A stretch of DNA of 64,000 nucleotides, taken from the NCBI GenBank assembly GCA_032622095.1, contig CP136064.1, positions 173,856,310-173,920,309 on the forward strand, in the 5' to 3' direction. A model generated the notes under the pieces. It worked only from the letters and a program-made list of their open reading frames with translations. It ran no database searches and was not told the origin of the DNA. The stretch is from Siphonodentalium dalli (taxonomy: Eukaryota; Mollusca; Scaphopoda; Gadilida; Siphonodentaliidae). A program made the translations under genes and the position numbers. Positions 7,549 through 61,849 of the stretch are shown here, piece after piece; positions within the stretch are counted from its first letter, which is position 1; the number at the start of each line of letters is the position of its first letter.

Positions 7549-7744
7549 CTGAGACAAGACTGAAAAAGTTTTTAATAACGTCATTTATTTGTGTATGAGC
7601 GGGATTTCATGCAACGACCGACGGAAAACCCTGCTGTAGATATTACATGCAAGAACCAATTCTGGTTATAGACGCATTGGTCAAGGTGCTACAAGGGCCG
7701 AGTAACTTGATAACCATGTGGTGAATCCCTAGCCTTCTTTAACG

Positions 7745-21034: not shown

Positions 21035-21249
21035 CAGTAATGCCCTAATTATTCGACTCCTTTAACCACAGCAGAATTATGGGTAACTTTTCTGGATTTA
21101 GTCGGAAATATGGCTTGTTGCCATTTATCGGAAAGCTCTCGGGGAGAGCTTTCCTATGAATGGCAACCAGCCATATTTCCGACTAAATCCTGAAAAGTTA
21201 CCCATAATTCTGCTGTGGTTAAAGGAGTCGATTAATTAGGGCCTTACTG
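21035..21249. mobile_element. Palindromic Tc1/mariner-type MITE, copy 1
   Basis: Flanked by TA on both sides, it starts CAGTAATGCCCTAA and ends in its near-complement. Both arms carry CCACAGCAGAATTATGGGTAA and GGAAATATGGCTTGTTGCCAT, meeting at a loop around AGCTCTCGGGGAGAGCTTTC. Because the whole 215 bp is one long palindrome, it is a good hairpin-RNA source if transcribed. Related copies lie in the GLUT introns at 54092-56652. Confidence 0.9.
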
Positions 21250-23984
21250 TACCTTTCAATGTTTAAAGATATCTGATGACCTATAATACTAATATATGGC
21301 CGAGTTATCTACTGGGACAGACGGGCGGGAGGACCGATGTGGCATGTCAATAGAAACAATTGTTTTTTGCCAATAGTTTATTCGTGCAATTCATAATAGC
21401 GCTTGCTAAACGCTTTTCGCGTTTCATCATGCATATATTAATTTTTAACATGCATTTTTTTAACAAAAGAGACTGTTGCCCTAATATCCAATCCAGGAAT
21501 ATCCATGTAACGGTTATATAAATAGAATACATTACAACAATTTAAACGGACATGGCTCATTAGAACTTTTAACGTTAACTTTGTTGACGTGATTTGGAAG
21601 AAGGTGACATTATGTTGATCCATACGCCATATCAACAGTTACTGCATATGCCATGGACAATCCTGTTAATGTCAGAACTAGGTTCAATCTACATTGAATT
21701 TTCGCACATGTGTGCCCTTTATTTATACATGTACCTTGTGAGGACTAGATCGTATAACAAGGAAATTGAAGAAACTCTTCATTGATCAATGCCGAAGAAA
21801 GTTCTGGACCCAAACGTTCTCAATTATATCACTAATATTAATCTTGCTGTGGCATAAAGAGGCCGAATATAACGTTAATATTAAGCATAATGTGTAGACC
21901 TAATTGGTTGATCCCTCCAGAACTGGGCCGCGATGTAACAAAATAGAACATAATTTGGACCTTCAATTGACATTCAAGTACATTTGAGACATTACCATAC
22001 CGGTACATGTAAGTATGTACCTGACAATAGATCATAATTAATAAATACGACACCGTCGATTGCCGACGTCGTGCCGACGTCGGGTTGCCGACTGCGATGA
22101 CAATAGACCAACATTAAATAAATGTTGGCGTGTTAACATACTAAAAGTATAAAACGTAACAATCTGTTTGATACAATGAGAAACTCTATATCATAGAGAC
22201 AAATGTGGCTATATATATTAAGCTGTTTTATTTAGGGGTACCAATCAAGCCCGGAACTTCGGATGATTTCCATGAGTGTGCAATATATTTTGGAAAAATA
22301 TTAAATTTTCCTTTATTATTCCACCCTGGAAATTTATCCATGCACGCACGGTCCTCTGCGTAATCATTAACACCGATTGTGATTAATTTTCCACATCAGA
22401 GAAGAAATAATAATGTTAGGCTCCAATCAGCAACAAATTTAAAGTCGAAAATAATGTGACCGAAGCTTTCAAATTGACGCAGCAGACGAGACGTACAACG
22501 GCGTCATATTAGCGACAATGACGTTTTCGGTCGGCAATCCGTCGGCAACCGATGTTTTACCGACCAATGTATGAAAACAACAAAAATCAATTCAAAAACT
22601 ACTATAAAAGCATGGAACGTGCAATAAACCTTCAAGGGTGGAATTTATGTAGCAAAGATTAATATACGACTTCGGGCATCAATATGGTACATGATATATA
22701 AATATTCCGCGATTTATTTATCACTGGTCAGTTTCCCGTCGGCAGCCGACCATATGTCGACCTCCAGTTCTGGCGAGATCTAGTGAACGTCGGGTGCCGA
22801 CCTGTTGCCGACCATCTCTATTTCACAACGACGTTGGGCCGACGTCGCCCCGACGGACATACCGACAGTTGGGCCGACGTCTGGAACCCGACGTCGGGCC
22901 GACGTCGTTGTGCTGTCTGGGTAATATTGGCATATACTCGCGTGGACACGGCATGGTTGTTATATTATCAGAACACTGGGCCCCTTAATGTGGAATAGAC
23001 TATCCCAATGCATGCTTTCATATAACTGAATGGGCGCATCCATTCGGTATTGAAAGGGTTAAAATTATAAATTGTTTATATCGACAACACCCAGTCTCAG
23101 ACATCGCTGGCATTTGTCAATATATACACATAAGAATAGAAAATAGTTTGAAATATTATATATCATTACTATCGGGTTCATCATTCAATGATGCATGCAT
23201 ATATCGCAAGATGGCATTGATGATAGCAGTCTGAAGTCGACAGAAGTCCCAATGTAAATACTTATACCGATTAGATGGGAAACTACATAGTATATCCATG
23301 TCAGTCCTTCGTGAATTTTCGCCATAATGGAAAAGCCCAACATCAAAAGATTACGTGTGGTCTGGAATTCTACGGGTTCACCACAAACACTAAAAATAAA
23401 AACGGCGTCTATAACCGGTAACAGGGGATTAGGAACATTTCGGAAACGAAAATACGGTGAATGATAACATCTCAGCCGGTGAAGCCGCCATATTTTGTCA
23501 GCCACAAACGTCGTGACTGAGCCGGCTTAGCTAGCTAACCAGCCACGAAAATCGGTTGAGCCAGCCATGAAAACTATTTGTCGTGGCTTCTGGGTCTACG
23601 ATGTGGCTTTGCGAAAAATATATAAATATATCACAGATATCATTTATCTCGCGAGGCGAATCAGATATAAAGGAAACACGCGTACACAGTTTGGTTAACA
23701 GTGCGGTCGGTCGGTTTATAGATTGATTTTTTTTATTTAAAACCAATAAAATGAACTTGGGTCGGGGGGTTTTAAATACGGTCGGTCGGGTTACGGGAAA
23801 CACGCATTCAATTTGTTTTGGCCTTATTACTAGTATACTACTACTAGTAACCTCAAAGGTTTTTTGAAAAATCAATGGAATCTGGGAATATTTGGTCTTG
23901 TTGTTGTCTACAGGTCGACAGAAGCACCAGAAAAATAAAAAAAAATAATTTGACAGAAGTTTTTTTTTTTCAAAATTGTTGAAG

Positions 23985-29234: not shown

Positions 29235-32218
29235 AGGTGCGGATCCAATACATATAGATAACACGAATATACATGCACAAAAAGTTAAGATGGCGCAATC
29301 GAAAATAAAAACATTCTTCGAACCTGAAGTGAAGAAACAAAAAACAAGTGAATGCGACAAAGGTCTAACAACTAGTTCCACCGAGTATGAACCACCCGCA
29401 TCATCTATTGACGCTAGGCCTGCCAGCCCTCCATTGGTTACAAATTATGAAGCGCATTGTATCTCAGAAGACACCAAAATGAAAATCATCAATGGCAGGA
29501 TCCCTGAATCAAATTTCCCCATAGAATTTACAAAGACAAACGGAAAAAAGATGGGTTAATGAAGCGATATTGTTCATTAGATTGGTTTGCTAAATATCCC
29601 TTCCTAGGATATTCAAAACAAAAAGGTGTCTACTGCACTCCGTGTGTATTGTTCCCATCCAAGGCTCATCAGGGTTCACGTGCTTCTCTGCTAGTCAAGG
29701 CAAGGCGGCATATACAAACTGGAAGGATGCGACAGCAGATTTTTCCAACCACGCAGTACTAGAATACCATAAGGATTCCGTTGCCAAATATGAAGCATTT
29801 GTTCAAGGTTTTACCCATCCTAGTAGAACGATATCTGCCATCATAGATGACGGGATTGATAAACTGATTAAGCATAATAGACATATTCTTGAAACCATAG
29901 TGAAATGCATTGAATTTTGTGGGCGCCAAGGCATAGCACTTAGAGGGCATCGGGACGACGGGAGTCCTGATCCCGAAAACTTCTACATTGTTGGGAATTT
30001 CAAATCGCTGCTACAGCTTGTTGGTGAGATGAACCCCGAGATGAGAGACCACATTGATAAATGCAAGAAAAACGATCAATATATGTCAAAACCCGTCCAA
30101 AATGACATTCTAATTTGCATCTCGGAATATATTACCAATATAATTATCAATGAGATCAAGGCACAACCTGCAGGACCATATTTCGGCCTAATAATTGATG
30201 AAGTAACAGATTCAAGCAATTGGGAGCAGATGGGCATAGTCATTCGTTATATAAAAGAAGGGAGAGCAGTAGAGTGATTGGTGCAGTTTGTTGATTGCCA
30301 ACGAGCAACCGGGGATCTCATATCAACTGAGATTTTGAGAGTTTTGGGACAGCTCGACATCGACCCATCATTCTGCAGAAGCCAGACATATGACGGAGCT
30401 GGAGCTATGGCTGGATGCAACAATGGGCTAGCAGCAAAGTTCATCGAGAAGACTGGTAACCAAAGGGTCCCATACTTCCACTGTGCTTCTCACGAACTGA
30501 ACCTGGCCTTAACAAAGGCGTGCACTGTCCAGGAAGTGCATAACATGAACTGCACGCTGGAAAAGCTTGGCGTATTCTTCAAGTACTCTCCAAAGCGGTC
30601 ACGGGAACTTGAAAGGCAAGTCGATGTATATAACGAGTCCCATCTAAATACTAAAACGTCCAAATCCAAAGTAAAACCACTTTGTGAAACTCGATGGGTG
30701 GAACGGGATACATCACTAGAGGATTTTGTTTCTCTGTACGAGCCAATCTTGAACACCCTGGACGCCATAGGATCCAATGACGAGCTGCACTGGAATGCCA
30801 ACAGTGTTACAGATGCCAACGGACTATTTCATAATATCACAAGCAGTGGATTTATTGTTGCTTTCAAAGTTTGCCATTTCCTCCTCGGATTCACCAAGGC
30901 ACTCTCGGTTCTACTTCAAGGCACGGAAATAGATGTGGTGGTCGCCTATGACGAGATAGAACTGATATGTTCAGAAATAGAGCAAATTCGAGAGAACCAA
31001 GAGTCGGAGTTTGCGAAATTATATGTGGAAATGTCTGATATGGCTGCCATATGTGGAACCAAACTGGCTAAACCCAGAACATGCGCACGACAAACCAATC
31101 GCAGTAACGCAGGTTCCGCCTGTGATACAGTCGAGGAATACTTCAGGAATGAATGTGTTTCTACCTTTTATTGACACCATGGTCGCGGAGTTTAGGGGTC
31201 GCTTCAACAAGCTTACAAACAGCGCTATGCAGGGAGTTGATCTTATCCCCAGGTATATGGAAGACAAACTAGAACACGAGCCAGATGCTGTCGACAAAAT
31301 ACTAAGTTATTATGCTTGATATGCTTGAATCTAGTACCTTCAAACATGAACTCCGCCTATGGAGAAGACATTGGAAAACTGAGACTGAAAAGCCGAGCAC
31401 AATTCCGAGCACACTGCAGTCGATCGATAGGATACTAGTTAAATATCCAAACATAACAACAGTGCTCAGCATTCTATTGGTAACTGCATCTACTGCAGCT
31501 ACCGACGAGCGTGCAAATTCATCTCTGAAATTTGTCAAGAACAGACTCCAGAATACCATGGGTGAAGACCGACTGAATGCTCTTCTACTCATGCTCATTC
31601 ATCGAGACATTAGACTGAATTATGCTAACATTGTTGACAGATTCGCCAGGCGTCAACCAAGACGGATGCTCTTGCAACACCCACTGGCTGACTGAATCCA
31701 CACGTCGACGGCCAGAGAAACTTGTCTGTGTGCGTGCTATGAGATGCTGTGAGCATTCGATGAACTATGAAGCTTTGTAAATTTTATTATAGTATGTTTT
31801 GATAAATTGTCAAATGTTTCCCAAATCAAGCTTTGAACATTAATTGTGGGCATATACAAGAACCTCCATTCCTCTAGCCCACTGATAACTGACAATTCAT
31901 GTTTGGTGGGGCATTGTATATGTCACTCGAGTAGAGTAGAAGGGGTTTCGGTAGAACTATATGGCAAGAGCTAACTTAACATATATGCATATTTATTTAT
32001 ATAATTGCTATTGTTGCTATTGCTGGCAGCAATTTACTAATCAATTTAGAGCTCAGAGTTGAGAAAAACGCTTGTTTCTGGTGCAATGGACCCCCACCAG
32101 ACAGAGGGGGATACCCCCTCTCGCACTCTCCCCCCTCGACGCTTCGTGGCTCGGATGATGCTTCGCATCATATGGCCAATTACCGTCCCCCCCTATTCAA
32201 ATTTTATGGATCCGCCAC
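29235..32218 (+). mobile_element. hAT transposon with perfect 8-bp TSD
   Basis: TGCACACC stands on both sides (29227-29234 and 32219-32226). The left end AGGTGCGGATCCA pairs with the right end TGGATCCGCCAC, close to the hAT CAGTGGCGGATCC type; the left terminus has a small disruption. The 2.98-kb body holds one transposase reading frame on the + strand (29290-31695) broken by shifts and a stop. A GC-rich 3' segment (about 32075-32190) containing CCCCCTCTCGCACTCTCCCC lies before the right end. Confidence 0.92.
29290..31695 (+). pseudogene. Broken hAT transposase (ZMYM1/TTF-finger, DUF4371 type)
   Basis: The start at 29290 (MAQSKIKTFFEPEVKKQK) lies within the element, whereas the frame opening at 29224 begins outside it. 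In order: a basic N-terminus; a TTF-type zinc finger with YCTPCVLFPSKAHQG near 29630-29680; the DUF4371 signature GRQGIALRGHRDDG near 29920; a first acidic site in LIIDEVTDSSNWEQ near 30190-30230; TYDGAGAMAGC near 30387-30420; CETRW near 30690; and a C-terminal hAT dimerisation segment with ATDERANSSLKFVKNRLQNT near 31500-31560. Breaks: a stop and frame change near 29555, a shift near 29690, an in-frame TGA at 30275-30277, a shift near 31145 and another near 31315. Domain order and length fit a formerly complete transposase of about 800 residues. With an intact TSD but several lesions, it is a moderately old, inactive insertion. Confidence 0.88.
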
Positions 32219-39198: not shown

Positions 39199-39549
39199 TT
39201 AGTGAACTTTCTATATAGATTCAGAGGTACAAAATAATAATTTTGATTAAGAGAGACCAGATGATAGGAGCATTTGTCACTGGGAAGTAATTTTTTCACA
39301 ATTTGTGGAATTAAATTTGACGTGGGCTTTAAGACAAGATAAACTAAGATGATGAAACTTATTTTAGGCATCAGAAATAACCTTGACAAGACAGACAAAT
39401 AAATGTAAGAACAAATAAATAATTGAAATTACAAATTCCTCACTAAATTGCACATTACCTATCATTCAGTCTTAAGAAAATTGAAAATAGAACACACAAG
39501 CAAAATGCTAAATTTGAGTGATCAAATTATAGTTTTACGAATGACCGGA

Positions 39550-39709
39550 ACTATTCATTATGACGTTAGGATTATCCCCTCTAGCTATTAATCGACTCGC
39601 CTTGTTACGCGAAGCGTGACCAACCAATCAATTTTAACCTCACCCATGTCACGCTGAGTGAATAGAGTCCGTACCTAATCCCCTCACTTTCCTTCTGGCG
39701 GTTATCGAC
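39550..39709. repeat. DIRS inverted terminal repeat (3' side of the element)
   Basis: Reverse complement of 44483-44643 with few differences; shared words include TATTCATTATGACGTTAGGA, CGACTCGCCTTGTTACGCGA and TTCTGGCGGTTATCGAC. Outside it, bases 39506-39549 are an unpaired extension whose complement is found only in the internal complementary region. Confidence 0.92.
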
Positions 39710-39760
39710 AACCACCACAAGAAAGTTTTATTGACAAAAAGCGGGGAGGCGGGACGGGCC

Positions 39761-39860
39761 GTCATAATGAATAGTTCCGGTCATTCGTAAAACTATAATT
39801 TGATCACTCAAATTTAGCATTTTTACGTCATGACCTCCACTATTCATTATGACGTTAGGA
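39761..39860. repeat. DIRS internal complementary region
   Basis: The first about 62 bases are the reverse complement of the 39506-39567 end. The remaining about 40 are the reverse complement of the 44622-44662 end. The two halves meet at AGCATTTTTACG, which is the sequence expected when the two element ends are joined. In DIRS elements such a region templates the head-to-tail join during replication. Confidence 0.9.
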
Positions 39861-40209
39861 ATAATACAGATTCCAACAGAAACACATGGAGGTGGGATAT
39901 CCACAAGTCAACAATGTCAATAAAACTAGCAGAACTCACCCCAAAACTTGGCAAGCCATCCCTGCTAAGAACTGTATATATACATGTAGATCTTCAGTCT
40001 AAAAATTTGCGATTGCTGTCGTCCGACTGAATCCGCATTATCATAACATGAAACACAAAGCCACACTGGTCTGTCTGCTCCCATGTGGAATCACCATACT
40101 GTATATACATCCCCAAACATATAAACAACATCTTAGAGATACTTTCTCCAAATGGCGACTCGCCAGAAATATGTAGTTAAAAACATCATTGAATCTCTAC
40201 TCCGTAGAA

Positions 40210-41280
40210 TTATTGTCTCCCTGACAAAACCTCAATATTCAATGGCTTCAAATAATGTCGAATGAACGTAGAATCTTGCGTCCAATCTGCAGCCTCCAGC
40301 ACCTGCTTAAGGTTGGCACCGTTGAACAGTGCCCAAGCCGGACCCACACTGCGTGTAGAATGACCCGAAACTGCAGGAACTGGCTTATTCTTCAAATCAT
40401 AGCACAGCTTGATGCATTCCACCAACCAGTGAGATATAGTCTGACTAGAAACTGGATGGTGTGGTTTTGAATATGATAGGAATAAAGACATACTGCTGAC
40501 TGCGGAAGTTGCTTCCAAACGCAATCCTGATGTTCTCTGGATATAATGCAGAATACAATGTAGTTCTTTTAGGATCCAACTGTTCACAGTCCGGAAAGGC
40601 CGGTATAAAAATAGATTGAGAGTGATGTGCAGGCCGATCTTGCTTAGCCAGTCCAGCTCTCATAAAGGTAAGACCTTGCCGTTGAATGTTGACATATCCT
40701 TCACCCAGTTTAAGCGCTTGCAAATCACTGCAACGTCTGAAAGATGTGACCGCAATCAACAGCACCGTTTTGAACGTCACCAGTTTCAACGATGCATCCT
40801 CCAAAGGTTCAAAAGGTCTTGACTGTAAACATTCTAAAATAAGAGAAAGATCCCATGTTGGTAAAAGTTGTCTAAGAGGAGGTCGTTCATTGAACACCCC
40901 TTTGAGAAGTCGAATGATTTTGGGATGTTGACCTATGGGAAACCTATCGATGCAAGGCAAAAAAGCTGATAACATAGAGCGATATCCAGTTATCGTAGAA
41001 TATGCTAACCCTTTTTCGAACAGATCTGACAAAAAATTAGCACATTCTGTCAAAGTCGCCTTATAGGGATTAACTTGTTTTCCCAAACACCAGCTATGGA
41101 ATTGTCGAAATTTGCTAGCATAATCTTTTCTTGTTTCCTGTCGCCAGGAGTGGGACAAAAGCTGTCGAGCTCCTGACGAAAAGCCATCTGTTTCGAACTG
41201 TTGGTTGAGAGTAGCCAAGCCATCAGATTCAACATTTTGAGATTGACATGCATTATTTCCCCGTTCGCCTGTGTCAAGAG
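40210..41280 (-). pseudogene. DIRS tyrosine recombinase (one frameshift)
   Basis: The minus-strand frame enters from an overlap with the RNase H frame. The N-terminal SAM-like region (SWRQETRKDYASKFRQFHSW ... TITGYRSMLSAF) covers about 41140-40960. The catalytic part has Arg in VTSFRRCSDLQALKLGEG (near 40740). A frameshift near 40560-40590 follows. In the second frame come HPVSSQTISHWL, the HxxR box in SGHSTRSVGPAWALF (near 40340) and the tyrosine in TFIRHYLKPLN (near 40245). All recognisable catalytic residues are present, so a single shift appears to be the main lesion. The enzyme would integrate the circular DNA form. Confidence 0.88.
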
Positions 41281-43351
41281 ATTCGGACCCAGAGGTAATT
41301 TGACTGGCAAAGCTACTAGCAGATTCAACAACCGAGGATACCAACATTGATTTGGCCACCCTGGAGTGATCATTATCACGGTGCAAGGAAATCTCTCGAG
41401 ATGGCTCAGAACACGCATTATTAATGGAAATGGAGGGAATGCATATAGAAACAGATTCGTCCAAGGAATGGTTAAGGCATCCTGTGCCCATGCTAATGGA
41501 TGGGGAATCCAAGAACAAAACCGGTTGATTTGTCGGTTGTCCCATGTTGCGAACATGTCGACTGTGGGACAACCCCAAATCTGAAAAAGATTCTGGACCA
41601 CCGTTTTGTTCAGGCACCATTCGTTCTGATTGAGAGATCTCCGGCTGTAATAATCTGCTATTACATTGAGCCGACCCTGAATGTGAGCAGCTGAAATCAT
41701 TATATTGTGCTCGAGAGCCAGATGCCACAGTTTCAGTGTCAACTGACATAGTATTGGAGACTTGGTTCCTCCTTGTTTGTTTAAATACTGAACCACGGTT
41801 GAGTTGTCAAAGCGAATCAAAACATGTTTGCCGACAATCATTTGTAGAAACCGACGAAGTGACTGAATAACTGCCTCCAGCTCTAGTTGATTGATATGGC
41901 TCACTTTTTGAAAAGGAGACCACACTCCCTGAACTACGAGATTGTCTATTGTGCCTGCCCAACCATGTCGCCCGCGGCATCGGTGGTAATCGTCACTACC
42001 GGAGTTGAAATTTTCAGTGGTTGCCCTTGCGCAATATTTACATCGTTCAACCACCAATTGAGACATGCCTTCAGGTTTGTTGACCTCGGTATTATCGTCT
42101 CTAAACTCATTCGACTTGGTGACCAATTTTGCAGGAGATGCTGTTGAAGTGGGCGCATGAACAGCCGAGCATTTGGAATCACGGATATAAGCGAGGCTAT
42201 CATTCCTAGTAACAACAAAAACTGTCGCGATGTTACATTCGGTTGACTGAGCCTTAGAACCACTTGTTTTAGACCCGATAGTCTCTCTTGAGTAGGGAAT
42301 ACTGTTCCTGCTTTCAGATCGAACAGACACCCCAGATAAATGAACCGAAGGGACGGAGTTAGATTTGATTTCTCTTGATTTATCAAGAACCCCAATTCGG
42401 TCAGGGTTTGAATTACTAACGATCGATCGTTTAGCAACTGATTGTGTGACCGATTCACTACTAACCAGTCATCTAAGTAGGTTATCAGTCTTACACCGCG
42501 TTTTCTCAGCAATGCTGCTGCTACCGACGTCAGCCGTGTGAAAAAATCGAGGTGACATGGTCGGGCCGAAGCAAAGAGCACGAAATTGATAATTTTTCTT
42601 GCGAAATCGGAACCGAAAATACTTTCTGTGTGCTTTTGCAATCAAAATGTGATTGTAAGCGTCGCATAAATCCAGGGTTATTGCATGATCTCCCCGGTTT
42701 ACTAATTGGAACACTGATTTTAGAGTGTCCATTTTGAAATGTGTTTGCACGATATAACGATTCAGAAGTTTTACATTCAGAACTGGTCTGAATTTTCCGT
42801 TCTTTTTGGGGACCAGATAAATTTTGCTGTAGAACCCGTCTATTGCCAAATGATCGGGAACTTTTTCTACAATACGTTTTTGCAGAAGTTGATGTACTTC
42901 TTGCTGTACCAAATCTCCCTGGTGTGGAGGAAGATTGGTTTCCCTCACACCGGAGAATTTTGGAACAGTATGAAATTCCAGACGTAAACCCTGGGATATT
43001 ATGCTCAACACATACGGGTCGCTTGTGATTGCTTTCCAAGATGTCATAAAATGAGACAAGCGACCCCCGACCGGAATTTCTGGCATAGGATTTATTATAC
43101 TTACACGATAGTCAGAATCTCTGTCCACGTCCTCGACCACGAGGTCGGCCCCTTGAATTGGAGTTAGACCAGCCGTTGTCTCGAGATCCGGAGTGGTAAT
43201 ATCGAGATCCTTGACTTGAACTAGCTTTTGATGATCCCGCTGAGGCGCTCGAATCAAGCTTGGGGATCCAAAATTTGAACATCGCATCTCTGTTTGGAGT
43301 GAAACCACTCGACGAATGAGAATGCGAACCGAAACTAGCGCTAGCCGCCAT
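41050..43351 (-). pseudogene. DIRS reverse transcriptase-RNase H (several frameshifts)
   Basis: Probably starts at 43351 (MAASASFGSHSHSSSG) with a Ser-rich, RG-rich leader ending GRGRGQRF. A shift near 43120 leads to GGRLSHFMTSWKAITSD, then RT motifs LVPKKNGKFRPVLNVKLLN and ITLDLCDAYNHI (near 42690). A shift near 42560 leads to RLITYLDDWLVV with the YLDD active site (near 42480), then RFIYLGCLFD. A shift near 41960 leads to the RNase H and linked region: QLELEAVIQSL, LIRFDNSTVVQYLNKQGG, HIQGRLNVIADYYSR, VDMFATWDNRQ and YAFPPFPLIMRVL. The order is that of DIRS pol. It overlaps the recombinase frame, as is usual for this group. Confidence 0.9.
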
Positions 43352-43354
43352 TTT

Positions 43355-44455
43355 TTATTTCTTTATTACCGGTGGACCTGCGCTTGTTACCGTACTCGTC
43401 CTTTTACGTTCCTTTTGACTTTCCGATTCAGGCAATAGTTCGAGCATTTCTTTGCGCCTTTCTTTTCGCGATTTAAGCAATGGCTCCAAACCATTCCCAA
43501 ACACACCATCCCCGGTCAGAGGGAGATTCGCCATAGAACTCGTGGGATCACTGGTGTACCAATCAGAATCAGTCATAGCACATGTACGGTGAATAATGTG
43601 ATGAAACGCTGTCGTGCGTCCGATCTGATCCAAACCCTTAGATGTAATTTCGAAAGAGTCTTTCAAAAGAGAAATTGCCTCCGTAATGTCACAGTTATCT
43701 TTTTCCAGACAACTCAGCAGTTTCGCCAAAGATTGCTGGGTGTAGAGCTGAGCTATAATAGCAACTCGACCTGCTTGTTGGCCCTTGTAAGCTATTTCTT
43801 CCAGCATTTTGCATGGCTGGGAATGAAGACTTGTTACTTTTTGCGTGAAGCGATTTTTGTGCAAACCCCGAGTTCCATATTTCTTGGTTATTGCTTCTAC
43901 CAATAATGGATCAAGTGGCGGAACATTCAAAAACTCTGTAGTGTCTTCGTCAATGGGTAACCGATCATAAGTGTCCTCGTTATACGAAGATAAATTTCGA
44001 GGATGGTCAGATCTGAGAGATTGCATTAACAGATCTTTTTGTGCTTGGTCAATGTGAAGCCCCATCTTTTCAACAGGCACCGCTATTTGGAAACTGGTTT
44101 CCCCAAAAATCTCAGATAATGATTTTCGAACAGTGGATTTTGCGGTGTCAGCATCACTGCACATGTCCTCCGAATCATCCGATGATAAATTATTTGCATG
44201 TATACTAATTTCGTCCCCTCTTTGTGAGGATACTGGGGAATCATCGGTTTTATGTTCAGATCGCGTTTGCTGTGCGTCTGACAATAAAGTGACCAGTTGA
44301 TCTAATTGACCCTTCATTGTAGAGAAATTTTGCATCATATCCACCTGGATTTTGTCACACCTGTCCTCCACCAAATCCAAACGAGATTTCTTCTTCTTTC
44401 CTTTGCCCTTACCCGGGCTATTAGTCGTAATACAGGAATTTTCTGTGTCCGACAT
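43355..44455 (-). CDS. DIRS gag-like ORF1
   Basis: An uninterrupted frame of 366 codons whose ATG is 27 bases inside the terminal repeat boundary at 44483. The N-terminus is Lys-rich (GKGKGKKKKSRLDL), followed by a probable coiled coil (VEDRCDKIQVDMMQNFSTMK), an acidic Ser/Asp-rich stretch and a helical C-terminal half ending in basic ERRKEMLELLPESESQKERK. No zinc knuckle is visible. Position and composition, not sequence identity, identify it as the structural protein. It stops four bases before the likely pol start at 43351. This is the only undamaged ORF in the element. Confidence 0.75.
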   Translation of the reverse strand: MSDTENSCITTNSPGKGKGKKKKSRLDLVEDRCDKIQVDMMQNFSTMKGQLDQLVTLLSDAQQTRSEHKTDDSPVSSQRGDEISIHANNLSSDDSEDMCSDADTAKSTVRKSLSEIFGETSFQIAVPVEKMGLHIDQAQKDLLMQSLRSDHPRNLSSYNEDTYDRLPIDEDTTEFLNVPPLDPLLVEAITKKYGTRGLHKNRFTQKVTSLHSQPCKMLEEIAYKGQQAGRVAIIAQLYTQQSLAKLLSCLEKDNCDITEAISLLKDSFEITSKGLDQIGRTTAFHHIIHRTCAMTDSDWYTSDPTSSMANLPLTGDGVFGNGLEPLLKSRKERRKEMLELLPESESQKERKRTSTVTSAGPPVIKK

Positions 44456-44482
44456 AATGTGGTAACAAGATTAAACACCTCT

Positions 44483-44643
44483 GTCGATAACCGCCAGAAA
44501 TGGAAGTGAGGGGATTAGGGACGGACTCTATTCACTCAGCGTGACTTGGGTGAGGTTAAAATTGATTGGTTGGTCACGCTTCGCGTAACAAGGCGAGTCG
44601 ATTAATAGCTAGAGGGGATAATCCTAACGTCATAATGAATAGT
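44483..44643. repeat. DIRS inverted terminal repeat (5' side of the element)
   Basis: Partner of 39550-39709. The outer extension 44644-44662 (AGGTCATGACGTAAAA) has its complement only in the internal complementary region. The promoter for the minus-strand transcript should lie in this repeat. Confidence 0.92.
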
Positions 44644-44662
44644 GGAGGTCATGACGTAAAAA

Positions 44663-47178
44663 CAATAACTTGGCGGTGGGTATGCTGTTTAAATAATCAC
44701 CTCTGTCAAAAATCGCCATAAACAGAAAGAATAGTAAAATATAGACATACCTTGTTCTTACACCAATCAGAAATATGGCATAAAAAGTATGTTATTGTCA
44801 ATGGCATTTGAACAAAACTATATATATGTTAATATTCATTCTGTTGATGGCGATTTGAACAAATATGAATATTTCTGCAACGGACGCTGCCCGGGCCTTT
44901 AAAAGGAGTCTGACAAAGACAGGACAATACAAAAGACAATTATAAACATGAAATATAAAACATGCTAAGGCCAAAAAAAAAAAACATGTCTGTTTCCGAT
45001 TTCTTGAGCAAAAAAATCCAGGTAGGCAGGTAGGTAAATTATTTTTTATTGGGGATTTTTTTTTTTTCTTCAAAATCCATCCAAATAAAGTTTTGTTGCA
45101 TCTATAATGCACCATATTCTAAAAGCAAGATTAAAGTTGGTATTCTCAAAACCTTTGTATCCATTTGCTGAAGTCTCTGACAGAAAACTACCTTTATATC
45201 TGACAATATACCCAATTCTATCTAGATATAAATAATGATACCCGTGCCATCATCTTGACATCGCATTTTCACCTGGCCGTGCGACTCTCAGAATAAACGG
45301 AAAGCTACAGGTCAACAATCTGAAAGTTTTATTACTTTAAACATATTTTAATGTATCTAGAAAATATACATAGGGATCGGGGCACAAGTTACAAAACTTA
45401 CAAACTTGCCCCTCTCCTAATACAATCATGGAACATACATAAAAATAGATAGCAGATATAGCACAAAGTGTTTATAAAGAATAGTGCAGAGTGTGTGTGC
45501 TGAAGATGTCAGGTTTTCATCTGTATTCCAATCTCGGTTATGAAGAAAAGCCTAGAATTCAGTGAGTTTGAAAGATGAAGGGCGAGATTTACCATGTTAT
45601 CATACATGGGTTTGTTCAAAACGCTTTGTTTTAGCTATATAAGATTGAGTAATGCGAAAAAGAGTAGTGTTCTTGTGGTTTGATATACCTTTAAAAAGTT
45701 TATTGCCCCGTGGTCGCCACGATTAATTAAACTGAGCATTATGTAACCACGAATGGTTGTTCCATCTGGTGACATCGTACTATATACAATACGTGACGTA
45801 TCTCAATGACAGCACGTGCATGCCGCCAAATATAAAACACGAGTAGGCCTACAACGCACATGCATGCACACGATTATAATATAATTACGTTTCTCTGTTG
45901 AATATCTATTTTTGTAATACACCTAATATTAAGGCTTGTCGTTGGTAATGGTATGTGCATGTATGATTTATATAATGGCACAATGTTTGTAAAAGACCCC
46001 TCTCCTATTCCGAGTCCTTCTAATTTAACCGCCGAATCGATTCCAAAACATAGGCCCCTCGCCTCATATACAGGAGTTTTATAACGGGGTCTGCAGAATC
46101 CATGGAAGGAAATAGTTGGTAGATAATTATGCTTTTGAACCGCATTTATTCCCGTCTAACTGCTGTACATGTACCTGCCCAAAACGGCAAAAAGGTGAAA
46201 CATGCATACAAATTATGCATCAAGTTTCGATTAAATAATTAAGGCGCGTGCCAATTAAGATTGTTACAGGGTCAATGTAATACACCCTGATTTGAAAGTG
46301 AAAACCCCGCAGCGCACATGTCGGATTGCATCGCAGTATATTGTTAAACAGATCAAAGGGTGCCGCCGAGTGAATTCATGTGACGTAATTGCTGCGTCTG
46401 TGACCAGGGTAGCCATTGGTGAATAATTAGAGTATTGTTTAACTGACTCACCTGACTCACTATTGTCGCTAATTTAGTCGAGTTGTCGGGTTTCCTCGTC
46501 AATATAGTGCAGCATTTTAGTTTGTCAGACGATAAGAAATTTTCAGGTCGCACGAATATTTTCAGGTAGGTCGGGAAACCGGAAACAGACAATTTTTTTT
46601 TTGGCCTAAGACAGCTTCATGACCTGACAAGGTTAAACCAAACACATATATGTATATGCTGCCATTAACTTCGGAAAACAATTTTAGACTGTTTTGTATT
46701 TATATTTGTAACAAGTCATTATCATACGGTATATACAAAAACCCACATCAAGTTAAAATCTTTAAAATTGACACATGCTAAAATCAATTTTCGCGCTCTA
46801 TATCTCAACATGAGAAATTTAACGCGGAATAACTAAGCAAACAGTTTCCTCATAATCTTAAGGAAATATAGATGAACACTTGATTTTACGGAATGTTGTC
46901 AACCCTGTGTACTGTTCTCAAACATTTAACTTGTGGAAAATTTGAGTGTTTAAAGTTTAAGTACAGTTGTTTTTAATTTTGGTAATACTAAGAGCTTATT
47001 ATTGTGAAAAAATCTATAATGGTAACTTTTGGTGAAATTTTGTCAAGTTTTTCCCCAGAACAGGCTGAAAATAGACAATTTTATGAATTTCACTACTTTT
47101 ACATGATTTCAATATGATGTATTAGTCGGGCAGCTAGGTACACCCCCTATGGACCCCCCACAGGATTCTTCTGGACCG
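44663..47178. other. No gene recognised
   Basis: AT-rich intron DNA with poly-T and poly-A stretches around 44978 and 45058. Open frames are short and unrecognisable. Bases 47127-47178 are a direct duplicate of 47312-47369, just outside the foldback arm. Confidence 0.5.
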
Positions 47179-48939: not shown

Positions 48940-51231
48940 GTACAAAACACGGAAGCTGGGAATTTGTCAAAAATGGCCTTTGGGCTCTCAGGAAGCCCTT
49001 ATACCTGGTCGAGGGTAATAAATCTGGTTTTCCAAGTCCTGAACTGGTCAGTAGCATTGTGCTATCTCGACAACGTAGTTATTGGGGGCATTTTCAGTAT
49101 CTAATCACCTCCAGAATCTCCAGGAAGTACTACAGAGATTCCGTAAATATAGCCTGAAATTAAAACCCCAAAAATGTGAGTTCTTCCAGCACAAAATCGA
49201 GTTTTCTAGGAAGAATAGTCAGTCAGGATGGGGTTAAAACTGAATGACGAGTCCCTAGAAACAGTTAAAAACTGGCCAAGCCCATCATATCAAGTACCAA
49301 TGAAGTAGAAAGCTTTTGTGGCCTGGTGATCTACCATCGGGCTTTTGTTAAAAGTTATGCCGAGGTGGCTAGACCATTATAAGCCCTCACTGGAAAACAG
49401 CCATTCATATGGGGAAGAACAGCAGGAGGCCTTTGATACACTCAAGGCCTCTGTGGGGTCTCCTCCAGTCTTGGCACTACCCAACAGTGAAGACTCCTTT
49501 GTCCTGGATTGCGATGATAGTGGGTGGGCCGTCGAGGCAGAGCTCTTGCAGATCATAGGGGATGAAGAACGAGTGGTTGCCCATGGTAGCGTTATCTTTA
49601 CCCCCCGAGCAAAGCCAGTATTGCACAATCCGGAAAGAACTCCTGGCTGTCATAAGTTTTAACCGGCAATTCCATCACTACATTTTGGGCAAGCCCTTCC
49701 TTTTAAGGACGGATCATAGCAGCCTCAAATGGTTGATGGGTGACGCCCTCTCCATAATACAAACTTACGTCACTTGCCAGCAGTATACCGCGGGCTGTGA
49801 CCTTGACAAGTTGCCATGCAAGGGCTGCAAATACTGTCAGCGTCTCCAGCGAAACTGGGCTAGATTTGAAGAGGAAGTTGATAGCATTGTGGCTTTAGCC
49901 CAGGGGTTATGGGAGTTTGTAACTTAGAATGGCCAAGTTACTCCAGCTGTCTCAATGGTAACCTCCGCTAATTACTCAGGTGTGGAATACTGGCAAGATG
50001 GATTCCAAGGGCTGCCTTGGGACACAGGAGGCGACTGGTCGGATTGCGAGCCATGTATTGTTTGTGTCTGCCCAGGCACTGGATGGATGCACTCAATATT
50101 GGACTTGCATTACCACCACATATACAAGACAAAGGTTAATATGAGACAAGATACAAGCTCAGATCCATCCCGACCTAAGCTTGGCGGGTATATGCACCCT
50201 AGTTGAACTTGAGAAACAACGTAAGGAACCGGATCTATCCCCAGTCATTGCGTGGATAGAATCCGGTCAAGAACCAACAGAGGGTGAATTATTCATCTCC
50301 ATTAAGGCCACTAAATATATCTGGATTAATCGTCAGAGATTTGTGATAGTAAATGAATTACTGTATAAGATAAAATAGAAATTGGGAGCAGGTTTTAGTC
50401 ATTCCAAGCCAATTTGCGGCTGAGATCTTGGCTATTGCTCATGATATACCCGCTTCTGGTCATCAGGGAGTGGTGCGTACCAAAGCTGGAGCCAAAAAGT
50501 ACTTCTATGCATGGAATTACTCAAGACTTTGAATCATTCATAGGGGTCTGCCCCCAATGCAATCAAGGGAAGAAACCATCGAGGCATGCAAATGGGAAAT
50601 GCAAACCATCCATGTGGGTAATCCAATGGAAAGAGTGTACCTGTATGTCCTTGGACCATTTATACTTAGTGAACAGGATGACAAATACATTCTGGTGATC
50701 ACGGATCAGTTTACTAAGTGGGTGGAGTGTATTCCCCTTCCTGCTCAGACCACAGAAACGATGGCATGTGCGGCGGTAAATGAATTCTTTGCACGCTTCG
50801 GATGCCCCTGGCAAATGTCGACGTACCAGGCCCCATGTTTTGAAAGTAAACTGTTCTGTGCGATCTGCGAGTTACTCCAGATACATAAAACCCGAACGAC
50901 CCCTTATCAACCTTCGGCAAATGGCCAGGTGGAACGTCAAAACCGGACCCTGATGAATGCGGTCCGATGATTCGCTAACAAAAACCAACGAAGCTGGGAC
51001 AAATTCCTTCCCCAAATAGCGGGCGCGCTAAGATCATCAGTGCACAGAATTACTGGCCAAACCCCAAATAAACTTATGTTGGGACGTGAAGTTAATCACC
51101 CAGTAGACTTGGTGTTTAATTTTACGAAAGAAACTCAGACTAAAACTGATACTGGTCAATACCTGAAAGACCTTGAACAAGAAATGAAGTGGGCCCATGA
51201 AATTGTCCGGGAACATTTAAAAACTACTTGA
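48940..51231 (+). pseudogene. Decayed Ty3/Gypsy pol (RT end, RNase H, integrase)
   Basis: Segments in order: the RT palm end with FGLSGSPYTWSRVIN and YLDN (near 48970-49085), where the family has YLDD; the thumb with KPQKCEFFQHKI and VSQDGVKT (49165-49235); RNase H with QQEAFDTLKASVGSPPVLAL, FVLDCDDSGWA and TDHSSLKWLMG (49425-49745); the integrase zinc-binding part with CPQCNQGKKPSRH (near 50550); and the integrase core with GPFILSEQDDKYILVITDQF (near 50655), GCPWQMSTYQAPCF, where the usual Asp is missing, and the Glu motif NGQVERQNRTL (near 50920). The C-terminal GQTPNKLMLGREVNHPVDL is at 51050-51100. Stops and shifts lie near 49102, 49255, 49330, 49640, 49925, 50377, 50520 and 50968. Neither gag, protease nor the first half of RT is recognisable. 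Clearly inactive. Confidence 0.88.
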
Positions 51232-54091: not shown

Positions 54092-54297
54092 ATGCACATA
54101 ATCGACTCTTTAACCACAGCAGAATTATGGGTAACTTTTCAGGATTTTGTCGGAAATATGGCTTGTTGCCATTTGTCAGAAAGCTCTCAGTGAGAGCTTT
54201 CCGATGAATGGCAACAAGCCATATTTCCGACTAAATCCTGAAAATATACCCATAATTCTGCTGTGGTTAAGGAGTCGATTATTTAGGCCATTACTGT
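54092..54297. mobile_element. Palindromic Tc1/mariner-type MITE, copy 2, abutting a splice donor
   Basis: The right end ATTACTG is followed by TA (54298-54299). The left end is trimmed: the usual CAGTAATGCCCTAAATAATC is reduced to TGCACATAATCGACTC directly behind the GTA of the exon 3 donor. The arms carry CCACAGCAGAATTATGGGTA and its complement. Confidence 0.85.
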
Positions 54298-54935
54298 AGA
54301 ACAGACCAGGAACAAACATGATGTCATTCATGTTGACAAGTCATTTCTTTGACTCTCCATATCTTGTGGAGTGAGAATTTTCAGAACACATGTAAAAAAA
54401 TCTTTTCTCTAAAACAGACGTTGCTCATTCGAACATCCAAATTATGTAATTTGGAAGGAGCCTCAAGGAGGTATAAGATAAGTTGACAAATACATGAACT
54501 ATGTTCACACCTATTATCCAGCTGTTTTCTTCAATTTTCACACATAAGTGAAACAAATTTTCTTTATTGTTACCATTACAGGAATAGACTAACACAGAAC
54601 ACTCTTTTCTGTTTCATGTCGTGATATTGGCTGTTTTTTTGTTTGGAACTCAAACATCGTGTTCAAAGTTGTATTTTGTATGACTGCAATGCGTATTTCT
54701 GGGACATATAAAGCTCATAGAAAAGTAGCTCAATAAAAAATTCAAAAGCGATTATTTATTTGGTGTATTAAAGAGCGCAAACCGCCATGTGGCTTTAAAT
54801 TACTTAGACTGTCTATCAAATTATCTTGTTTGGTTATTGAACTATCAATTTCAAGAGGTTAACTGACACATTTGTATCTGAATGGCACATTGTGTTTCAG
54901 TTGCATTAAATGTCAATACACTTTTATATCCACAG

Positions 54936-55060: not shown

Positions 55061-55132
55061 GTGAGTTACGGGGTTGAACTGGAAATCCTAGTCTTTTTTT
55101 TCTTTCTGCATAATTACTTGAAAAATATTCTA

Positions 55133-55345
55133 CAGTAATGCCCTAAATAATCAACTGCTTAATCACAGCAGAATTATGAGAAATTTTTCAGGATTTAGTT
55201 GGAAATATGGCTTGCTGCCATTCATTGGAAAGCTCTCGGTGAGAGCTTTCTGATGAATGTCAACAAGCCATATTTCCGACTAAATCTTGACAAATTTCCC
55301 ATAATTCTGCTGTGGTTAAAGGGTCATATACTTTGAGCATTACTG
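55133..55345. mobile_element. Palindromic Tc1/mariner-type MITE, copy 3
   Basis: Left TA at 55131-55132 then CAGTAATGCCCTAAATAATC. The right end is ATTACTG followed by TG instead of TA. The arms and central AGCTCTCGGTGAGAGCTTTC loop match the other copies. It lies in the intron between exons 4 and 5. Confidence 0.88.
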
Positions 55346-55656
55346 TGTATTTCAATGCAGTCACGAATATTCATGATTCAACTTTTATCTCTTTATAGTC
55401 AGCTTAGTCCATAGTGTATGCAAAGAGTGTACGAAAAGCAAAAAAAAACACTGGCACCGTGGGGATCCCACTGGATAACCAGGATTCACAGTGATTCTTG
55501 ATCACCATGAACCATTGAGAATCGCTGCAAAACACTGACTACTACTTAGGATATTTTATGCCATTTCAAATTTTTATAACAGTTTTAATTATTATATTGA
55601 TAATTGTCTTGTCTTGACAAAACTTTTAATGACAACTTGATGAAAATATAGACCTA

Positions 55657-57657: not shown

Positions 57658-57682
57658 ATATTTCCGCTAAAGGAAGCCGTTC

Positions 57683-57852
57683 ACACTGAACTATATGGAT
57701 ATATGTCCTGCGTTTGTAAACCATAGTAGAAAAGGGGTTAACTTTTTGTGGTCGCCTACGATCCCTCACGGCCTTCAGTGGCTTGGTCGGAATCAGTCAC
57801 GCATGCGCAGTCCCAATATAACCGATTGAATCTCGTCAGTTTATTTTCTGCT
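57683..57852. repeat. Inverted terminal repeat, left (DIRS-type element 2)
   Basis: Pairs with 61635-61804 as reverse complement with few changes. Includes ACGCATGCGCAGTCCCAATA and AAACCATAGTAGAAAAGGGG. The outer bases 57658-57682 (TTTCCGCTAAAGGAAGCCG) pair only with the internal complementary region. Confidence 0.88.
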
Positions 57853-58564
57853 ACGAAACCGAACGGAAGTCTAAAGGGAGTATTGTTCCGAATTTGTCGT
57901 TTAACAACTAGACAACAAATTCAATTTATCGATACAATAATTACTGGTCGCCTACGCGTTAGTTTTTAGAATTATTGTTTCGAATTCACGGACCGTTTCG
58001 CTTCAAACATACAATTGTCCGTGTTTTCGAACAGGCGGCGGACTTAAAAAATTTTCAAATATGAAAATCGACATTGCGCCATAATCAGCCGCCATTTCAA
58101 GGCCTTACGAGGCGCTTAGATTATTGTGAGCAATTCATCTATGTAATTATTATAGAACCTATAAGGTATGATATAATTTGTCAGATATAAAAAATGCCAC
58201 GTGATTCGCTACCGGAAGTCTCCTAATTTCGTGGGAATTTATTTACACGTGGACATTTATTTAGCAATAATTACCATCGCTACTGACGCTATCTATCATA
58301 ATGTTATGAACAACATTCTTTCTCATAATACTTTGTTGTTTTATGGTTCAATACAACTGATCCATATGTGTTGGTCACATTTGAACTTAAAGTTGATTAC
58401 ATCTTGGTTTATCAATGTAAAAACCGATACCTAAGAATAACAGTAGTGTCATTATTACTTTAATAAATTGACAGAGATTGATATTGGACAAGTGTTATAA
58501 TTCTGTTCATGGTTTGATTCTCGTAATGGAGCATCACCTTCGATGTAATAATCTCAGCCATGTG

Positions 58565-58800
58565 CTAGCGGACCGGAGATCGCACCCTGGTCAGGGTATT
58601 CTGACAGAAATCAGAACTCGGTCCGATACCAAGTTTGTCTGGCTAACAAGTCCCATTCGAGATTACTGAATAAAATCCGAATGCAAATGCCGACTTTCCC
58701 CATTACAACACTTGTTCAGGTATGTTGTCGTGGGTGCACTACGCTGTGCGATCGGGTGTGGACAATTAAAACTTAATGGCTGACCCATGTACACACCTAG
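58565..58800. repeat. Dispersed repeat, copy B (inverted relative to 7745-7980)
   Basis: Reverse-complement match to 7745-7980 through GACAGAAATCAGAACTCGG, CAACACTTGTTCAGGTATGT and GCGATCGGGTGTGGAC. It lies inside the second DIRS-type element, so the element either picked it up or was invaded by it. Confidence 0.75.
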
Positions 58801-58980
58801 GTGTGTGCATGTTACAGAACACTACTGGAGTCACTAGAACTCATCAAAACAACATGCTTTCACAAAATACTTTGTGTTTTCTGTTTCAATACTGTCACAC
58901 ATGTCTCCTATGATTTAGATGTGTTTGTCGACGCTTGAAGTTGACTACAGTTTATCAATATCAGAAAAATAACGACTGTC

Positions 58981-60250
58981 GTGGTACTAAGATTCGTTAG
59001 TGTCTTTAATTTCAGACAGGGATTGACATCTGACAGGAGTCAGAATTCTGTTGAGTACATGATTCGATTCTCGTACAGTGCTTCAACTTCACTGTCAAAT
59101 TTTGAACTGCTAGCATTTAATGATTGCAAGCATGACACTAAAATTAATCGTGATGACAGTTTCACTATTGTCTCAATTCCAGATTTTAGTTATTATTCTG
59201 AATTGTATCCAAAATTAACCCATCCTTTCAAAATTGCTGAGTTGATTCTCGACTAAATGGTGTCTCCTTCTGGAATACAAACATAATTGCTTTCCTTCCT
59301 GTGCAGGTTTACCGAAAAGAAGCGGTGGGGGCTGGGTTACTACGATTCTGGATATGGCTCTAATTGGGACACAAAATTACAAATCATGGGTGCTCCGGTT
59401 TGCATTCTCTAGAGTAAGGCAAGAAGCTTATCGTCACTCTGACGGTGTTTAATCATGGTTTCACTATCTACAAATATATTTGAAGATACTTTGGTTTAAA
59501 AAACCTTTCCCCTTCTTGATTCAATTATGAGAATAATTCCAGCCTGACAGGTATTTAGAATCGTGGTGACTTGACTCCTCCAGTTAACTGGCCCACTGTC
59601 AATAACTGGCGACCGTGGCCTGGATGACGTTCCCCAATGAATAACGATATAATAGCAGTGGTATTCCAAGACGAGGAAGGTGGGGGGAGACATTATTTAT
59701 GGCAAGTAACCATATCAAATGTGAGCTTGGTACAAGAACAGGCTGTACATCCAATACAGCATGCATTGTTCATAAAGGGCATGGTAGGTGTTTTGAAGGT
59801 ATTCATGGACTAGCTGGAGTCTCAATGAATTTTCAAATATATACGTGTCCCGACCTTTCATACCGTTGATATGGCGAATAGACTTCACACACGAATGAAG
59901 CATATTTACATGGAAAGCATTTATATTGTCACGTGTCCCACGACCACTGCCAATAGCCTTTCCGACAAGAGTCCATCAGCATGGCTCTTCATACTTCTAT
60001 TGCCCATATCAATTTGATTATCTGGCACATAGACAATAAAACAGGCAAAGACGTTTGCGCTGTCCAGCTAAGCTTTCGAGGAAGCTCATTGACCAGCATT
60101 ACCGACCTTTCCTAAGACGCAGGCAGGGGACCACCCCGTACGAGTGGATCCCATCCCCATGGCACCAGATGCCCGATTGTAAGGGCCTGAAACCATGCTG
60201 CCAAATATGCGCATTTCGGCCTATGCTGGGTTTGTCCTCTCTTCCTTAAA
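58981..60250. other. Interior of DIRS-type element 2: open frames of unknown meaning
   Basis: The + strand has an open frame at 58981-59256 (91 codons) and a Cys/Arg-rich frame at 60055-60249 containing CCQIC; the minus strand has 59693-59496. None shows a domain I know. Composition from about 59300 to 61330 is GC-richer than the flanks, which hints at former coding sequence. Confidence 0.35.
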
Positions 60251-61494
60251 CATGCCATAAGCAGGACCACTTAGGTAGGGGGAGTTCCTCTCTATCTTGG
60301 CTCTTCATATTAAAATAAAACAACATTATAAAAGGGATGTGTATCCTTTACTAGGAGGATGCTAATTTCATTCGTTTCCTTCCTAGGGGAGCCATTTTTA
60401 GAGCGGGTCCTCCCCTAGTTTGCTGCATGCTTCACACTAACTGCCTATCACACACCTAGGTCGATCTGCTGCATGTTTGGGGGGGGGGCAGAGGCTCAGA
60501 CCTGAATATTCCGTATGGTGACCGTGAACATTTACCTGTGTTCATCATCTGACTACATTGTACATCATTTGAACTGTTTTCAGTTGTAGAAGGCGCACCT
60601 TCATTTCTTAGAATCGGATCGCGGTGGGTATTCCGCTGGGAATGCAGACTGCTCTCAGGTGCCTAGTGGTCATAATGGCCTAATAATAGTAATGTGTGTG
60701 GATTTAGGCTGAACATAATACTTGTGATTGCACATTTTGCTGTCTGTCTCCATTCCAAAGGATGGTGCTCGTTGGGAAATTTCTCCAAAATTAATACTCG
60801 TACCGACACTATTGTTTGGCACCTGAGAGTAGCGGTTTGCTTTCTCATTGGATGCTCTGGTCACCTGCGGTGTTCGGCCATGCGCTCCTGATGCTCATGG
60901 CTGTTAGTCATGTTCTCTGAGGGGCTATATATATATCTTTAATGATACATTGGATTGTGCCCGGGATCTGTGGGGGCTCCCTCTGATCCGATGGCTTGAC
61001 TCGCTTATAGTTGTCTAACCCATTTGGGCTAATGGGCTCTCCATTTGATCCCTGTGCCACAGATTGGGCATCAGGTTATCTGCCATTTGCAGTTAGTTAA
61101 CTCTTAATGTGGGTTGTCTTGCCATCTTTGGAGTGGGCCTCCTCCAGTGCAGGTCGTTATGTCGCTAAGGCGGAGAGGGAGTTTAATAGTCTCCTCGCAT
61201 CTCAAATCGGCTGGATTCTTAGAACTGACGGATGAAGAACAGAGAATTGCTCGGTTCGCTCGCAATTCTGAATTGAATGGCACCACCTGGGATGTTGCTT
61301 CCAAAAACAAGGGGGGGGAGGTACATGTTTGAGCAATATAGCACTCTAATTATATGAGTTATTTCACGTAACTAATCATAACAGATTCATTAAAGAGTTC
61401 ATATTTAGGTAAAATCTGTTTTAGAAGAGTGCATTCCCTCCAAAATTTGGCTATTAACTTTATTGCTCGTGCCTCCTCCTGGGCTTGCATTCTA

Positions 61495-61594
61495 ATCCAT
61501 ATAGTTCAGTGTGAACGGCTTCCTTTAGCGGAAATATGATATTTTTTAAAATATAATATATATTTCCTTAAAGAAAGCCTGAACACTGAACTAT
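61495..61594. repeat. Internal complementary region (DIRS-type element 2)
   Basis: The first part (ATCCATATAGTTCAGTGTGA ... GCGGAAATAT) is the complement of the element's left end. The second (AATATATATTTCCTTAAAGA ... GAACTAT) is the complement of its right end. The length of 100 bases equals that in the other DIRS element. Confidence 0.85.
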
Positions 61595-61634
61595 CATTCC
61601 CAACCCCGCAACTCGCCAATCTCCTGATTGAGTT

Positions 61635-61804
61635 GAAAATAAACTGACGAGATTCAATCGGTTATATTGGGACTGCGCATGCGTGACTGATTCCGAGCAA
61701 GCCACTGAAGACCGTGAGGGATCGTAGGCGACCACAAAAAGTTAACCCCTTTTCTACTATGGTTTACAAACGCAGGACATATATCCATATAGTTCAGTGT
61801 TCGG
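61635..61804. repeat. Inverted terminal repeat, right (DIRS-type element 2)
   Basis: Partner of 57683-57852. The outer right extension 61805-61849 (CTTTCTTTAAGGAAATATAT ...) has its complement in the internal complementary region only. Confidence 0.88.
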
Positions 61805-61849
61805 CTTTCTTTAAGGAAATATATATTATATTTTTAAAAATATCATATT

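Follow-up and report, generated by a model that had tools for sequence, protein, structure and literature searches.

We analyzed a 64,000-nt stretch of the genome of the scaphopod Siphonodentalium dalli (contig CP136064.1, positions 173,856,310 to 173,920,309 of the forward strand; hereafter, the window), in which an earlier reading of the letters (the original prediction) had pointed to a DIRS-type element, here called element A. Element A very probably represents a long, high-copy, non-autonomous family of DIRS1-like retrotransposons that is mobilized in trans. This reading is carried by direct observations on the anatomy of the element, the lack of genes in the copies now and in their ancestor, the multiplication of the family, the ATT and NTN cores at the ends, and the variants shared by the two inverted terminal repeats (ITRs) of single copies. 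Judging from its sequence, A keeps the cis-acting parts (ITRs, right extension, internal complementary region (ICR), and recombination core) around a long gene-free interior.

Layout of element A

The features of A are as follows (window coordinates).
57658–61849, + strand: element A, a copy of a non-coding DIRS1-like family, starting with ATATTTCC and ending with ATCATATT
57658–57848, + strand: left ITR
57658–57700, + strand: outer left end, of which the first half of the ICR is the complement (43/43)
57849–61494: interior, in whose six frames no coding capacity was detected
58537–58816: segment of about 280 nt, absent with nearly identical borders from L011, L019, L026, and L027
60970–60972: point at which about 825 nt (785–843) are lost from A; the segment is present in 14/14 other spanning copies
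61495–61594, + strand: ICR, the presumed template of the circle junction
61495–61537 and 61533–61594: halves of the ICR, overlapping by five bases at 61533–61537 (ATATT at the ends)
61635–61822, + strand: right ITR, inverted relative to the left one
61823–61849, + strand: right extension of 27 nt, to which nothing in the left ITR corresponds; it contains the palindrome ATATTTTTAAAAATAT
Junction sequence of A: ATATTTTTAAAAATATCATATTTCC

The inner parts of the ITRs (57683–57848 and 61635–61800; 166 nt) are 99% complementary. When gaps are allowed, 57658–57848 pairs with 61822–61635 at 95.8% over 191 columns, and the repeats are thus about 190 nt long. The original prediction had recognized both repeats but put their length at about 170 bp. 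The 100-bp internal region, which it described as joining the complements of both outer ends, is confirmed as the ICR and recurs in the genome copies. Its positions 61495–61537 are the complement of the outer left end, and 61533–61594 are that of the outer right end (61789–61849) at 60 of 62 positions. The BLAST E-values for the repeat pairings of A inside the window are 2e-83, 2e-22, and 5e-16. The right extension is matched by the ICR and unmatched by the left ITR. The trinucleotide ATT is located at both termini and in the ICR.

This layout, consisting of ITRs, a right extension, an ICR, and a short circular junction, is the DIRS1 plan. The available text of Piednoel et al. 2011 (PMC3266345) gives the same parts for DIRS1 elements, with a junction that is commonly NTT, and that of PMC5633606 gives the same plan for DIRS-1. 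The assignment of A to DIRS holds on this anatomy and on the lack of target duplication at two empty sites described later.

Copies of element A in the genome

The genome from which the window comes has 9 contigs with 2.23 Gb in total and was searched for copies with the same termini. Forty of 1825 first-look candidates, obtained with the first 601 nt of A, were scored, and these are A and 39 others with identities of 96–98%. The 20 best of the 39 were fetched, so that close relatives whose left end is intact are overrepresented. The left end is seen in 22 copies (A and 21 others within the 20 fetched loci). The right end is also present in 16 of the 22, A included, each with an ICR, which is interrupted in L011. 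In L015, the ICR is present and the right end is broken. Besides A, 16 copies have an ICR, including the interrupted one. The order ITR–ICR–ITR is identical in every one of the 16 copies for which both ends are available.

The long relatives are about 5.0 kb (L010, L015, L016, L017, and L025, 4.9–5.0 kb), and L019, L023, and L027 are 4.7–4.8 kb. The original prediction, which called the circle-junction architecture intact, needs one correction: the segment of about 825 nt listed above is missing from the interior of A. Further copies have other deletions or nested insertions, and L012, L013a, and L018 have lost most of the interior while keeping both ends.

A 49-nt pattern of the inner ITR, which occurs twice in a full copy, gave 138 matches in the genome with at most 3 mismatches. 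A 31-nt circle-junction pattern gave 476 under the same limit, though some matches with 3 mismatches may represent left ends next to a flank that fits by chance. The reversed patterns used as controls gave 0. Since all 100 junction places listed are exact and 97 of them are on contigs C1 and C2 (together 512 of the 2227 Mb), several hundred junctions genome-wide is a fair estimate. An A-type inner ITR is found at most 300 nt away in 18 of 97 junction places, among the ITR matches listed (100 of 138). The family probably has hundreds of relatives in the same genome. A is one copy of a high-copy family, not a lone decayed copy.

A sister subfamily (L039–L042) is 92.9–94.0% identical to A over 1.1–1.3 kb. 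Its longest frames are 126–160 aa, and a tblastn search gave no match to DIRS proteins. These loci were fetched as candidates for an autonomous partner, having a junction match and no listed A-type ITR, and proved to be this subfamily. Since an exact match to the junction was the criterion for choosing them, the identity of their junctions does not speak for constraint.

Some observations on copies and segments stand apart. The segment 58566–58834 of A recurs at window positions 7721–7982 (80%) and is perhaps a short nested repeat. A 1438-aa open frame (L009, 3249–7562 in the element orientation, reverse strand) lies between two parts of an A-family copy. L055 (G000:C2:233587000-233596900) is one unit, of about 9.15 kb, of a tandem array and contains a 5'-truncated A-family copy and other sequence; its overlap with the next unit is 748 nt with 99.5% identity. 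The array (C2:233.58–233.61 Mb) was considered as a rolling-circle product, and ordinary tandem duplication is the simplest reading.

Coding capacity of A and its relatives

A coding DIRS element located 13 kb from A, element B, was used as a control.
~39502–44671, − strand: element B, DIRS1-like, of a different family from A, with reverse transcriptase (RT), RNase H, and recombinase frames, ITRs, and an ICR
39760–39863: ICR of element B

Element B is about 5.2 kb long with ITRs of 154 nt (95%). The open reading frame in its gag position has no Pfam match. The frames of B overlap, and the RT match is divided between two of them.

From stop to stop, the frames inside A reach at most 103 aa. A six-frame Pfam search of the interior of A (stops written as X) gave no match of any kind at the curated cut-offs and detected no RT, RNase H, recombinase, or methyltransferase. 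The best matches below the thresholds are DUF3959 (E 0.065) and DUF6347 (E 0.16). The interior of L017, searched in six frames, gave 0 Pfam families at E ≤ 0.1. The same treatment of three frames of B placed RVT_1 above the cut-off, and RNase H (E 0.012–0.015) and Phage_int_SAM_4 (E 0.001) below it. Three frames of another coding locus, L034, likewise gave RVT_1 above the cut-off, and Phage_integrase (E 0.0054) and Dam (E 0.034) below it. The original prediction of an interior without recognizable pol or recombinase is thus borne out, with positive controls.

In tblastn searches with the frames of B, L034, and L037, no match at E ≤ 1e-3 was found in the 20 fetched loci. The best matches of the B frames on the interior of A, with composition statistics off, have E-values of 0.022 (gag-position frame) and 0.064 (recombinase C-terminal frame). 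They are scattered over frames and strands and were taken as chance. Scans of the window for tRNAs and Rfam families (the latter at gathering scores) gave nothing.

Eight of nine copies examined (3.4–5.0 kb) have no frame of 110 aa or more, and L025 has two (156 and 123 aa). Stops common to at least 75% of the copies number 74–100 per frame in all six frames, and no stretch free of shared stops is longer than 96 aa (reference L017, 5.0 kb; depth 10–20, median 15). Identity to L017 is 97–99% in most 250-nt blocks, and 92% and 91% in two. Judging from the stops shared among the copies, which close all six frames, the common ancestor of the compared copies was already gene-free. Since no shared open stretch exceeds 96 aa, the suggestion that A carries an unknown protein cargo is not supported.

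Ends, cores, and empty sites

The left ends begin with (AT)ATTTCC, and the left trinucleotide is ATT in all 22 copies. The right ends stop after ATCAT plus a trinucleotide, which is ATT in 6, TTT in 4, ATA in 2, ATC in 2, GTT in 1, and TTC in 1 of the 16 copies. The right trinucleotide is therefore NTN in 16/16, the middle T being invariant. The flanks of the 22 left and 16 right ends show no consensus outside this core.

Empty sites were sought among the window and the fetched loci, with six copies re-run, and at least two were found. L026 and L027 sit in repeats whose other copies show the empty site, and neither site has a target duplication. At the L026 site, all 8 printed alignments read ATATT once at the junction. 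As ATATT equals the core of the circle, this site shows the lack of duplication and is silent on the origin of the core. At the L027 site, three well-aligned repeats read GTTTC, GTTTC, and GGTTC, four other alignments being too gapped at the junction to use. Since the aligned repeats carry TTC where the right end of L027 has ATTTC, the final TTC of this end is evidently derived from the target. The right core equals that of the target at both empty sites and is informative at one.

We infer a crossover just before the trinucleotide, by which the left end would receive ATT from the circle and the right end would keep NTN from the target. According to the available text of PMC3266345, recombination occurs with an identical genomic trinucleotide, and at least two rows in its table have unequal termini. 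The variation of the right core in the A family suggests that partial identity of the trinucleotide is enough.

Inverted-repeat elements of about 200 nt are found in the window at 21032–21251, 54099–54298, and 55131–55346. A genome copy of this repeat hosts the L026 insertion at ATATTTCC, which resembles the left end of the element itself.

Equalization of the two ITRs

The distance between the left and right inner ITRs of the same copy is 0.0135, against 0.0239 for left and right ITRs taken from different copies, and 1 of 10000 permutations was as low (16 copies). Without L013b, the values are 2.13 and 2.89 substitutions (permutation 0.00025; 15 copies). Private variants common to both ITRs of one copy number at least 7 in L013b, at least 1 in L028, and one in L027. 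Insertions common to both ITRs are found in L026 and in L019. Two more ITR variants are common to unrelated copies. Given the lower distance within copies and these shared private variants, the two ITRs of a copy are equalized, either in the replication cycle or by later gene conversion. At the very ends of the element, the left and right sequences remain different and are consistent with the ICR.

Search for an autonomous partner

With the recombinase frame of B, 97 matches were obtained in the genome (of 1096 candidates, 93 were scored). Sorted by eye, the 14 junctions available from coding elements form two sequence types, both unlike that of A. Type one is AATTTGAG..CTCAAATTT..ATTTTTA, and type two is TTTGGACTT..TCCAAATCT..AATTTTA. 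In both, a palindrome precedes the core by a short distance; the junction of A differs in sequence and has a palindrome of its own.
Junction sequence that would mark a coding partner of the A family: AAAAATATCATATTTCCGC

The ITR or junction of A was found in none of the 10 best recombinase loci, one of which is B and two of which (L031 and L036) have matches that stop short of the ICR. The ends of A were found in none of 12 further recombinase 3' regions (best BLAST E 0.058), two of which (L053 and L054) lack a detected ICR repeat. Measured from the 200 listed family places, none of the 97 recombinase places is closer than 10 kb and only B is closer than 50 kb, in a test that is strongest on C1 and C2 (22 recombinase places). 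A pattern with the 21-nt core of A and a different continuation gave 0 matches, though it misses mismatched cores and many continuations. Since none of these searches, which covered the best-scoring recombinase places and were not exhaustive, gave a match to the ends of A, the partner of the family is probably rare, diverged, or gone.

Individual coding elements were also compared with A in their 3' regions. Element B scores 19.5 (shuffled sequences: mean 16.4, maximum 28.0), L034 scores 26.0 (mean 18.7, maximum 32.0), and L037 scores 22.0 (mean 17.9, maximum 28.5). All three are within the shuffled range, and B, which is a control, was rejected as the partner of A.

Surroundings of A and other features in the window

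A lies on the + strand, and upstream of it are sugar-transporter exons (Sugar_tr, E 1.8e-23), the last of which ends near 57000. The best Sugar_tr stretch ends at profile position 184 of 452, and no further match is found up to 64000. A therefore probably sits in an intron.

Other frames in the window are as follows.
8853–9989, − strand: frame with a FLYWCH zinc finger, possibly a transposon gene
29594–31174, + strand: two adjoining frames, the first with DUF4371, which we take to be perhaps a remnant of a hAT-type transposase
50533–50970, + strand: frame with an integrase core domain (rve), perhaps a fragment of a long terminal repeat (LTR) element

Discussion

The proposal that A is a non-autonomous passenger agrees with its many close copies and with the lack of coding capacity in A and in the ancestor. 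Mobilization in trans is what we infer, rather than observe, since no partner with matching ends was found. An A-family element would be transcribed, and the RT of autonomous DIRS elements would copy the transcript in trans. The outer ends would then be restored on the ICR, which would bridge them into a circle. A DIRS tyrosine recombinase would presumably insert the circle by a crossover at the 3-nt core without target duplication.

Several points weigh against this account. No autonomous element with the ends of A was found in a partner search that was not exhaustive. Templating of the ends by the own ICR of a copy has permutation values of 0.036 for the left end, which is weak, and 0.35 for the right end, which is not significant (15 copies). 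Gene conversion in copies already inserted is another possible source of the ITR equalization, and of the two empty sites only that of L027 is informative on the core.

A more detailed version can be offered only tentatively. The gene-free family may be served, now or once, by an unseen partner whose recombinase has its own specificity, corresponding to a third junction type. The copies would then reveal a rule of integration, in which the circle supplies the left core and the target retains its NTN as the right core. They would also reveal an LTR-like equalization of the ITRs that goes beyond the simple model of an end-restoring ICR.

The interior might act in cis or as RNA (packaging, promoter, or structured RNA) or derive from the host, which is compatible with mobilization in trans. 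The long copies retain an interior of about 4.5 kb, mostly at 97–99%. However, the window has no Rfam match at gathering scores, and L012, L013a, and L018 keep both ends without most of the interior, though they may have moved only before the loss. We regard these possibilities for the interior as rather unlikely.

Crypton-like behavior, in which a tyrosine recombinase would excise circles and reinsert them as DNA without reverse transcription, is improbable. A short core and the lack of duplication are compatible with any tyrosine recombinase, but the copy number is high, and the conserved ICR has no evident role in simple excision. The variants shared by the two ITRs of a copy fit a copying cycle, though gene conversion could yield them.

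It is very improbable that A arose by decay within an ordinary coding DIRS family, with genes mutated past recognition. Coding DIRS elements are common in this genome, and the length of B is near that of the long relatives. Nevertheless, copies that are mostly 2–3% apart have 74–100 stops in common per frame. These shared stops, with the empty profile searches of A and L017 and the empty tblastn searches of the 20 loci, largely refute this explanation, and it was rejected.

Inverted repeats are frequent in the fetched sequence, but chance nesting of elements like miniature inverted-repeat transposable elements is already refuted by the recurrence of the ITR–ICR–ITR order in all 16 two-ended copies (with the ICR of L011 interrupted) and by the outer-end complementarity of 43/43 and 60/62, the ICR being a recurrent part of the family.

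Beyond the original prediction, the results add that the family is of high copy number, that the ancestor of the sampled copies was gene-free, that A is shortened, and that the ends record the insertion of a circle. The steps of DIRS circle formation and insertion rest largely on a sequence-based model, and the end variation among many close gene-free copies is a natural experiment on these steps. A search by structure only (ITR and ICR, no pol) could reveal families that protein-based surveys overlook.

Non-autonomous families are well known for LTR elements, long interspersed nuclear elements, and DNA transposons. LARD elements of LTR retrotransposons have a long gene-free interior between functional ends and are mobilized in trans. 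TOC1 of Chlamydomonas may be a gene-poor relative. The A family has DIRS ends, an ICR, and a recombinase core, whereas LARD elements have LTRs and a duplication made by integrase. The LARD name appears in the available text of PMC8498967.

In the open literature searched (subscription papers and Repbase being outside its scope), no gene-free DIRS family of the ITR/ICR type was found; the non-autonomous element that did turn up is SIRE. The available text of PMC6681497 describes SIRE as a truncated non-autonomous form of VIPER. Like the A family, SIRE is a non-autonomous tyrosine-recombinase retrotransposon that retains its ends. SIRE, as described there, is short and made of the ends of VIPER, whereas the interior of the long A-family copies measures about 4.5 kb and has no match to a known pol. 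VIPER copies have split direct repeats, in contrast to the ITR/ICR-type ends of the A family.

Compared with element B and the other coding DIRS elements of this genome, A has the same order of ITR, ICR, and right-end repeats where seen, and each has a palindrome a few nucleotides before the core. The junctions of the coding elements, however, belong to two other sequence types. DIRS1-like elements (DIRS-1 of Dictyostelium and the families in the available text of PMC3266345) share with A the ITRs and a 3'-side ICR complementary to both outer ends. The right extension of 27 nt in A compares with 27–34 in rows of the table there. They also share an NTT-type junction (ATT in A) and the lack of target duplication (two empty sites in the A family). 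DIRS1-like elements code for gag, RT, RNase H, and recombinase, often with a methyltransferase, none of which was detected in A or the searched copies. Unlike in DIRS1-like elements, the right-end trinucleotide of the A family varies among copies, being ATT in 6 of 16.

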